A stretch of 64,000 nucleotides of DNA from Salinigranum halophilum. GTDB taxonomy: Archaea; Halobacteriota; Halobacteria; Halobacteriales; Haloferacaceae. Shown piece by piece: positions 60,106 through 62,068 of the stretch (position 1 is its first letter; each line of letters starts with the position of its first letter). Made by a program: the position numbers and the translations under genes. The stretch is from the NCBI RefSeq assembly GCF_007004735.1, contig NZ_SSNL01000008.1:62001-126000 (forward strand), read 5' to 3'. Under the pieces are notes generated by a model. The model was not told the origin of the DNA. It saw only the letters and a list, made by a program, of their open reading frames with translations, and searched no databases.

Positions 60106-60735
60106 TCACCGCGGGCGGGCCACGACGGCGAGGTGGTCGGCGTGGTACCTGTCGAGTCGGCGCGTCTCCAGCAGTTCGTACCCGTCCGACAGCCGCTCAC
60201 GGACGCGCTCGAAGACGTCCTCGGGTGCGGCCGTGACGTCCTCGCTTCGAGCTTTCACCGCGAGGAGCAGCCGACCGTCGTCGGCGAGGAACTGTCGGTT
60301 CCGCAGGGCGACGTCGGCCTGCCCGCGCGTCGCGACGTCCTGGACGAGCAGGTCCAGGTCCGCTTCGACGACGTGGGCGTAGGTCTCCGGCCGCCGGGCG
60401 TCTTTCAGGAGGGGAAAGAGGCGCTCCCGACTGGCGGCCACCGAGAGGAGGTCACGTGTCGGGCGCGGAGCGAACTCGACCGCGTAGGTGGGGCCACAGA
60501 CGTCGGCGACGTGGCTGACTGTCGTTCCCGACGCAGCCCCGAGATACAGGACCGACTGTGCGGGTCCGAGACCGGTCTCCATGTCGAGTGCGAGCATCGC
60601 ACCGAGTTTCGACCGGCCGGCGTCCCAGACACGCCACTCACCCACAGTGGGCTCGCCGTACACCGGCTCACCCCGCGTGACGAGCCGCGACCGTCCGTCG
60701 ACGGTTCGACGCTCGACGCCGTCGGGGAGGCTCAC
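60106..60735 (-). CDS. flpA: Fibrillarin-like rRNA/tRNA 2-prime-O-methyltransferase
   Basis: A 209-residue fibrillarin. SKLGAMLALDMETGLGPAQSVLYLGAASGTTVSHVAD contains the SAM-binding G-A-A-S-G-T-T-V, and TYAVEFAPR and VEADLDLLVQDV follow. It is the catalytic subunit of C/D-box RNPs, guided to rRNA and tRNA ribose sites. Its ATG overlaps the nop5 stop by 4 nt (60732-60735), so the two subunits are translationally coupled, which is the usual archaeal order. Confidence 0.95.
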   Translation of the reverse strand: MSLPDGVERRTVDGRSRLVTRGEPVYGEPTVGEWRVWDAGRSKLGAMLALDMETGLGPAQSVLYLGAASGTTVSHVADVCGPTYAVEFAPRPTRDLLSVAASRERLFPLLKDARRPETYAHVVEADLDLLVQDVATRGQADVALRNRQFLADDGRLLLAVKARSEDVTAAPEDVFERVRERLSDGYELLETRRLDRYHADHLAVVARPR

Positions 60736-61595
60736 GCGCCGTCACCTCTCTCGTCTGTCTCCTCCGCCCGAGCACGGATACGCGCCATCCGCTCGGCCAG
60801 GTCGGCGTGGAGTCGGTCGCGGCGTTCGCCGGCGTAGTGGTCCGCGCGGGCGGCCAGTGCGAGCTTCGCGGCGAAGGCACGCGCGGCCGACCCCCGGTCG
60901 TCCCGACGCGTCCCGCGGACGAACTCGTGGGTGAAGATGACGCCGTGTTTGGGGGACGGGGCACGCCCGCGCAGGTGCGCGAAGAGCGCGTCCTCGGCGC
61001 CGAGGACCTGGACGGTCCCGGCGGGCATCTTCGCCAGTGGTTCGAGGCCGCCGGCGAGCGCGACGAGACGCGACGCGAGCACCGGTCCGGCCATCTCGGC
61101 GAGGTTCGGGACGACGGTGGGCGCGTGGGTTTCGAGGTACTGTCGCAGGCTGTCGCGCTCGTCCGCCAGCGCCGCCACCTGCGAGGCGAGCGCGACGACC
61201 CGTTCCTCGGTGGGGTCCTGTGGGTCGCGAGCGGCGACGTCGACTCCTGTCCCGACGTCGTCGAAGAGCGCTCCGGCCCACTCCTCGACGCGTTCGGCGA
61301 GTTCGTTCGCCGTCCGAGCGGCGTCGTCCATGGCCCGGACGGCGTGTTTCAGCTGCTGGTCGTCGGCGCGTTCGCGTTCGCGGACGACGCGGGCTGTGGC
61401 GTGCACCGTCACCTGGTGGAGCCACTCGTAGTACGCGTCCGTCGACTCTGTTCGTCCGGAGGCGACGGCGAGCGCCGGCCAGTCGTCCGGCTCGTCGGCC
61501 TCACCGTCGGTGATTGCGGCGGCGGCCCCGTCGAGGTCCGCTCGGTCGACACCCTCGAACCAGCCCCCGTTCGGTGGAGCGGTTCCGTCGTTCAT
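60732..61595 (-). CDS. nop5: NOP5/NOP56-family C/D RNP core protein
   Basis: A 287-residue protein. The NOP domain is clear: LAEMAGPVLASRLVALAGGLEPLAKMPAGTVQVLGAEDALF and LRGRAPSPKHGVIFTHEFVRG, which binds the C/D RNA-L7Ae interface. The N-terminus is shorter than in other archaea. It bridges the guide RNA and fibrillarin. A TATA-like CTATACC (centre near 61620) is about 25 nt upstream. It leads the nop5-flpA operon. Confidence 0.94.
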   Translation of the reverse strand: MNDGTAPPNGGWFEGVDRADLDGAAAAITDGEADEPDDWPALAVASGRTESTDAYYEWLHQVTVHATARVVRERERADDQQLKHAVRAMDDAARTANELAERVEEWAGALFDDVGTGVDVAARDPQDPTEERVVALASQVAALADERDSLRQYLETHAPTVVPNLAEMAGPVLASRLVALAGGLEPLAKMPAGTVQVLGAEDALFAHLRGRAPSPKHGVIFTHEFVRGTRRDDRGSAARAFAAKLALAARADHYAGERRDRLHADLAERMARIRARAEETDERGDGA

Positions 61596-61701
61596 ACGTT
61601 CACGCGGACGCCCGCCGGTATAGCCGTCCCGGTCAGCGTCGACACGTCGGTGGCCACAGCGCGACCGCTCAGGAGGAGTGAAAACGGCGTCTGCCGGGAA
61701 A

Positions 61702-61784
61702 TGCAGTCCCAGTCGAAGTCATCACACAGCCGACCGCACGTTGTCGTACGGTCGGCTGTGTAGACAGTTGCAACAGGGACTGCA
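61702..61784. ncRNA. Nested inverted repeat between nop5 and cspA: candidate structured RNA or palindromic element
   Basis: An outer 9-bp arm TGCAGTCCC (61702-61710) pairs with GGGACTGCA (61776-61784). Inside, ACACAGCCGACCG (61724-61736) pairs perfectly with CGGTCGGCTGTGT (61749-61761) around a 12-nt loop. The two halves are separated by unpaired stretches of 13 and 14 nt. On the minus strand the segment 61719-61725 reads GTGATGA, the C-box consensus, but no clear D box sits at the right spacing. Could be an RNA, an operator or a small mobile palindrome. Strand undetermined. Confidence 0.4.
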
Positions 61785-61873
61785 CCGGTCAAACGGGCGT
61801 CCGCTCGTCAGCAGGGCACCGCACGCCCATCACGAGTTGTCGAGAGTCGAGTCGTCTTCGGTCGAAATCGACC

Positions 61874-62068
61874 TTACAGGCGCGTCAGGTTCGCTGCGCG
61901 GGGACCCTTGGGCGAGCTCTCGATGGAGAACTCGACTTCCTGTCCCTCTTCGAGGTCCGGGCCGCCAACGTCTTCCATGTGGAAGAACACGTCGTCGTCC
62001 GCATCGTCCGTCGAGATGAAACCGTAGCCGCCAGTGTCGTTGAAGAAATCAACGTTTCCTTTCGCCAT
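61874..62068 (-). CDS. cspA: Cold-shock-domain protein
   Basis: A 64-residue OB-fold protein. KGNVDFFNDTGGYGFISTDD and DVFFHMEDV carry the RNP1/RNP2 motifs (with GYGFI and VFFH). It binds single-stranded RNA or DNA. The ATG at 62068 has a TATA-like GATAAGG (centre near 62097) 29 nt upstream. It is divergent from trpB, with the 83-bp inverted repeat downstream of its stop. Confidence 0.93.
   Translation of the reverse strand: MAKGNVDFFNDTGGYGFISTDDADDDVFFHMEDVGGPDLEEGQEVEFSIESSPKGPRAANLTRL

Follow-up and report, generated by a model that had tools for sequence, protein, structure and literature searches.

What is the nested palindrome that lies beside the nop5-flpA genes in Salinigranum halophilum, and how did it come to be there? 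The window, i.e., the whole stretch of 64,000 nucleotides that was analysed, holds it in the gap between a cold-shock gene and the nop5-flpA pair, and this setting, first given by a sequence-only reading of the window, was confirmed. The upstream neighbour encodes a cold-shock domain protein of 64 aa (61874–62068, minus strand; PF00313). This coding sequence has several paralogues in every genome of the genus. The downstream neighbour encodes a Nop5/aNop56 protein (60732–61595, minus strand; PF01798) and is accompanied by the gene for the fibrillarin-like methyltransferase, flpA (60106–60735, minus strand; PF01269, NF003278); the pair spans 60106–61595 on the minus strand.

The architecture that had been described, a 13-bp stem within a 9-bp stem with internal loops of 13 and 14 nt, was found intact at 61702–61784. 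Read on the plus strand, the outer arms are TGCAGTCCC (61702–61710) and GGGACTGCA (61776–61784), paired at 9 of 9 positions, and the inner arms are ACACAGCCGACCG (61724–61736) and CGGTCGGCTGTGT (61749–61761), paired at 13 of 13. The inner stem, one mismatch included, reaches 17 bp and closes on a 4-nt loop, forming a central hairpin (61724–61761, minus strand). The minus-strand RNA folded together with short flanks gave −66.3 kcal/mol (z = −8.6), a value equalled by 0 of 200 shuffles. The palindrome is also the sole perfect hairpin with 13-bp arms (loop 3–20) in the 64-kb window, where 0.3 would be expected per 64 kb, an expectation that leaves the nested outer stem uncounted. These results agree with the earlier judgement that a chance origin is unlikely. 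The GTGATGA resembling a C box is likewise present on the minus strand. The palindrome matched no Rfam family at the gathering score, and its sub-threshold matches to microRNAs merely reflect the long hairpin.

The locus was compared in three other genomes of the genus, of which G002 and G003 retain the cspA-nop5 gap. Both flanks align in these two genomes, and the element is absent, with 4 bp in its place in the register of the family described below: the empty sites read CCG-GCAT-TTCCCGG in G002 and CCG-GTCG-TTCCCGG in G003, versus CCG[element]TTCCCGG in the window. The flanks conserved in both empty sites are located at 61690–61700 (TTCCCGGCAGA on the minus strand) and 61786–61800 (CCCGTTTGnCCG on the minus strand). 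A search of the two cspA-nop5 loci with the family model gave no match. Because the element is absent in both congeners and the family is dispersed, an insertion in the lineage of the window is more likely than two deletions. The site is GCAT or GTCG in the relatives, without TA, and no clear TA duplication is readable. No second copy of the window version was found elsewhere in its own genome.

The further copies that the sequence-only reading had proposed to look for were found in related genomes. BLAST with the window copy detected diverged relatives in 24 of the 170 genomes of the taxonomic family, several copies being present in some, and the aligned relatives form an 86-bp palindrome with the consensus CTATAGTAGCGTTTGCAACTGTTTACACA...TGTGTGATGACTTGCAAACGCTACTATAG. 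Covariance-model matches were obtained in 169 of 392 Halobacteriales genomes, belonging to 49 of 96 genera, and the 19 positives from a phylum-wide draw of 295 genomes were all within Halobacteriales. The copy counts from the model are lower bounds, few candidates having been scored per genome. Related palindromes reach tens of copies per genome, and an arm pattern occurred 121 times in genome G374 and 51 times in G378, against 0 for a reversed control pattern. Copies were also found on plasmids, including Haloferax mediterranei pHME505, Haloarcula hispanica pHH400 and plasmids of Halobellus limi and Natrialba magadii. The family elements are 83–86 bp in length and have no transposase gene. 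They adjoin unrelated genes, with no clear preference in the orientation of the neighbours, and 45 of 49 copies were outside genes predicted by a simple composition rule, compared with 45% for positions drawn at random from these loci. Such an excess would arise if insertions that disrupt genes were eliminated.

The first covariance model included the window copy, and a second model, R2, was built without it. R2 matched the window copy from end to end (1–86 of 86; 75.4 bits, E = 2e-17). In the 86-column register of the family, the whole element occupies 61701–61785 (85 nt here), and its A-to-B orientation follows the minus strand, on which all of the following parts are read. The A-side outer arm (61776–61784) is TGCAGTCCC in place of the usual TATAGTAGC, and the B-side outer arm (61702–61710), GGGACTGCA, is fully complementary to it. 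The A-side internal loop (61762–61775, 14 nt) is TGTTGCAACTGTCT and holds the conserved AACTGTCTA-type sequence, and the B-side internal loop (61711–61723, 13 nt) is GATGACTTCGACT and holds the conserved TGATGACTT-type sequence, which includes most of GTGATGA. Identity to the consensus was 19/36 in the outer arms and tips, 13/14 in the loops and 29/36 in the centre. The outer arms are wholly different from those of the family and the CTATAGTA tips are missing, while the subterminal motifs are kept. What remains in the window is one old, diverged relic of the family.

The ends of IS630 elements were found by comparing two copies each in genome G346 and in S. rubrum, in which the transposase belongs to the IS630 family (PF13358, NF033545). 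They are CTATAGTAnnnGTTAGAACTTTCTGCTCA on one side (G346 and S. rubrum) and CTATAGTAnnnGTTAGAAGTAATTGCTCAC on the other side (G346). The palindrome arms are CTATAGTAGCGTTTGCAACTGTTTACTCA and CTATAGTAGCGTTTGCAAGTCATCACTCAC, which correspond to the IS630 ends at the tips and, in an end-specific manner, at positions 17–29; the A-side loop is homologous to one IS630 subterminal end and the B-side loop to the other. Inspection of ten further IS630s carried by haloarchaeal plasmids (ISNpe3, ISNamo16 and related elements) showed that most share these tips and measure close to 1,061 bp. The IS630 tips are CTATAGTA or differ from it by one or two changes. Between positions 9 and 29, the IS630s mostly matched the MITE arms at 11–14 of 21 positions, and shuffled ends reached 12 or more in 0.4%. 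Because the haloarchaeal IS630s of the ISNpe3/ISNamo16 group share both the tips and the end-specific subterminal sequences, the window palindrome is very probably a copy of a haloarchaeal family of IS630-type MITEs. The miniature inverted-repeat element, one of the options named in the sequence-only reading, is thus supported by its relatives in other places, by exact empty sites and by ends like those of a transposon. Since the tips and subterminal sequences match those of the IS630s, the conserved internal loops, GTGATGA included, can be read as transposon end sequences, which are presumably the binding sites of a transposase.

Mobility is indicated by G378, where eight identical copies are located at unrelated sites. 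For ten G378 copies, the two flanks were joined and used to search the genus for empty sites, and the congeners showed 4 bp in a constant register: CTAG at one site, CTGG (once CTAG) at another, CTGG, CTGA or CTGC at a third, and ATAG at a fourth. The fifth pair of sites was more diverged and gave no clean reading. At filled sites, CTATAG was present at the two ends in 44 and 46 of 60 copies, respectively, 20 of these copies having been chosen by the arm pattern. Because typical copies have CTATAGTA tips and empty sites such as CTAG, the simplest reading is that C-TA-G would be opened at TA and the TA duplicated, a hallmark of IS630/Tc1-mariner elements, with the middle pair varying in some relatives. 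Tenzen and Ohtsubo reportedly observed in 1991 that TA within 5'-CTAG-3' is preferred. IS630-family elements are known to insert at TA with duplication of the TA (PMC2170065). From these similarities, we infer that a transposase acting in trans would bind the subterminal sequences (AACTGTTTAC at the A end and AAGTCATCAC at the B end), cut the element at its tips and insert it at TA, preferably in CTAG, and that the TA would be duplicated.

The source of such a transposase was sought in ten genomes, and PF13358 was not detected in five of them (G079, G041, G045, G097 and G374), all of which have the palindromes. G378, the carrier of the identical copies, has a PF13358 fragment only. No element of about 1 kb bearing the exact 9-bp tip of the palindrome was detected in G079, G041 and G097. 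In the copy-rich genomes without PF13358, the mobiliser may have been lost, may be too diverged or may be a different one. No convincing second end was found for a Halorubrum IS630 copy. A pair of tips 1,382 bp apart in G097, considered as a transposon, turned out to be two separate copies flanking an ordinary gene, and a 12-bp inverted repeat resembling the tip at another locus (L243) was a coincidence, the true IS ends being elsewhere. The genome of the window has one partial PF13358 match (G000:C5:466944-467180), and a search for ends of the CTATAGTA type around it gave none.

The family resembles the haloarchaeal IS630s (ISNpe3, ISNamo16 group) in its CTATAGTA tips, a distinct subterminal sequence at each end and a TA/CTAG-type target, and differs from them in its length of 83–86 bp, the lack of a transposase gene and arms that are complementary to each other over about 17 bp. 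Like MITEs of the Tc1/mariner-IS630 type, it is short and transposase-free, ends in inverted repeats that a transposon also carries and may duplicate TA; unlike them, it is nearly all one hairpin, with co-varying arms and a spread across an archaeal order. Bacterial REP elements are also dispersed extragenic palindromes, but they measure 20–40 bp (PMC3733652) and are linked to tyrosine transposases (PMC2817692). The family is of an ordinary kind, the IS630-type MITE. No description of this family was found in the open-access papers searched, the subscription literature and ISfinder being outside this search, and a literature search by sequence returned unrelated papers alone, presumably through primers. 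The family accounts for a recurrent, unannotated hairpin of haloarchaeal intergenic regions and provides it with a likely mobiliser, and there is no reason to mistake such hairpins for guide RNAs, operators or terminators. No function is indicated for the window copy at the cspA-nop5 site. Transcripts reading out of the cold-shock gene would contain a very stable hairpin.

The arms of the family co-vary. Among 36 diverse members, both sides were changed in 23 of 34 pairs, which 0 of 500 shuffles reached, and the compensatory base changes that the earlier reading had asked about were found in both stems. This co-variation exceeds what the tips alone require. It would suit another explanation, in which the hairpin form itself is selected, either as DNA whose folded state is recognised, as with integron attC sites, or in the form of RNA, serving as a terminator or stabiliser in a host transcript. 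The outer arms of the window copy, wholly different and still paired 9/9, and the position of 45 of 49 copies outside predicted genes are in line with it. However, relatedness combined with repair between the arms could yield co-variation without selection, repair or template switching can match arms in the same way, and any insertion is expected to avoid genes. Furthermore, the insertion targets are unstructured and the neighbouring genes show no clear preference in orientation. We therefore consider selection on the hairpin form unlikely. There is a similarly small chance that, across the order, the folded hairpin and not the ends alone has been kept by selection, as a derivative of a DDE transposon recognised or tolerated as a cruciform, as single-stranded DNA or as an RNA hairpin. 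If true, the arms would co-evolve so that they remain complementary, and the lineage of the window copy would have swapped its outer arms completely, yet kept the subterminal sequences of the transposon. The co-varying arms offer a testable case for the question of whether a mariner-type MITE gains from the form of a near-perfect hairpin.

A rival reading makes the palindrome a small mobile repeat like SMR-A and SMR-B of Haloquadratum walsbyi, moved in a way that has nothing to do with transposons. SMRs have a similar size (80–110 bp) and terminal inverted repeats, are transposase-free and are dispersed in haloarchaea (PMC3119063). Their ends are described as unrelated to any transposon and without target duplication, and SMR-A inserts into IS605-type palindromes (PMC3119063). 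The ends of the present palindrome, in contrast, match IS630 ends and a TA duplication is indicated. Insertion into palindromic targets was also examined and rejected, as the joined flanks of 60 copies showed no excess of structure over controls (mean +1.4 kcal/mol). An SMR-like origin is accordingly very improbable.

A non-coding RNA had been suggested from the neighbouring genes and the minus-strand GTGATGA. The very stable fold and the compensating changes that family members show in the two stems would likewise suit a guide RNA of the C/D (or H/ACA) type, made from this strand for the Nop5 and fibrillarin proteins encoded next to it. However, RTGATGA was present in 11 of the 36 members and CTGA in 6, and the two boxes occurred together in none. 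The relatives stand beside unrelated genes, and the cspA-nop5 gap of two congeners is free of the element. The 7x7 loop is unlike a kink-turn by inspection, and there is no fixed ACA, because any sequence may follow the outer stem on its 3' side. Together with the lack of an Rfam match at the gathering score, these results leave a guide RNA hardly credible. An operator for the cold-shock gene, another of the earlier suggestions, or an attenuator for it is equally implausible, since the element, although placed 89 bp past the cold-shock stop where it could add a hairpin to the transcript, is downstream of the gene, is missing from both congeners of the same arrangement and has relatives beside unrelated genes.

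Returning to the IS630-type MITE family, several scans beyond haloarchaeal genomes were performed. The exact arm pattern in 84,980 genomes gave 41 stretches with no haloarchaeal record among their titles, which were taken as chance matches. Viral pattern scans gave four matches, two related weakly and two unrelated by BLAST. A looser tip pattern gave many loci in the viral scan, none matching the model among the 80 tested, and no family member was found in a phage collection.

Some copies were found in unusual arrangements. In G212 (L446–L448), identical copies are paired head to tail, abutting a single N between them, and these tandems are probably artefacts of scaffold joining at repeat ends. 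On Natrialba magadii pNMAG02, ISNamo16 appears to follow a MITE arm (CTATAGTAACAACTGCAA) immediately, which would suit its insertion into one of the palindromes. In G079 (C1:1583846-1584012, L321), another palindrome, built alike but with different arms (TTATTGTAAGTCATTACC...GGCAACCAGTTACAATAA), interrupts the arm of a family member. A separate, sister element of about 113 bp has the same CTATAGTAG tips as the family and a similar asymmetry of the A and B ends. It has relatives in the three congeners and about four copies in the genome of the window, at G000:C5:564011-564123 (L148), C5:311335-311447 (L152), C2:526982-527094 (L153) and C5:354527-354639.
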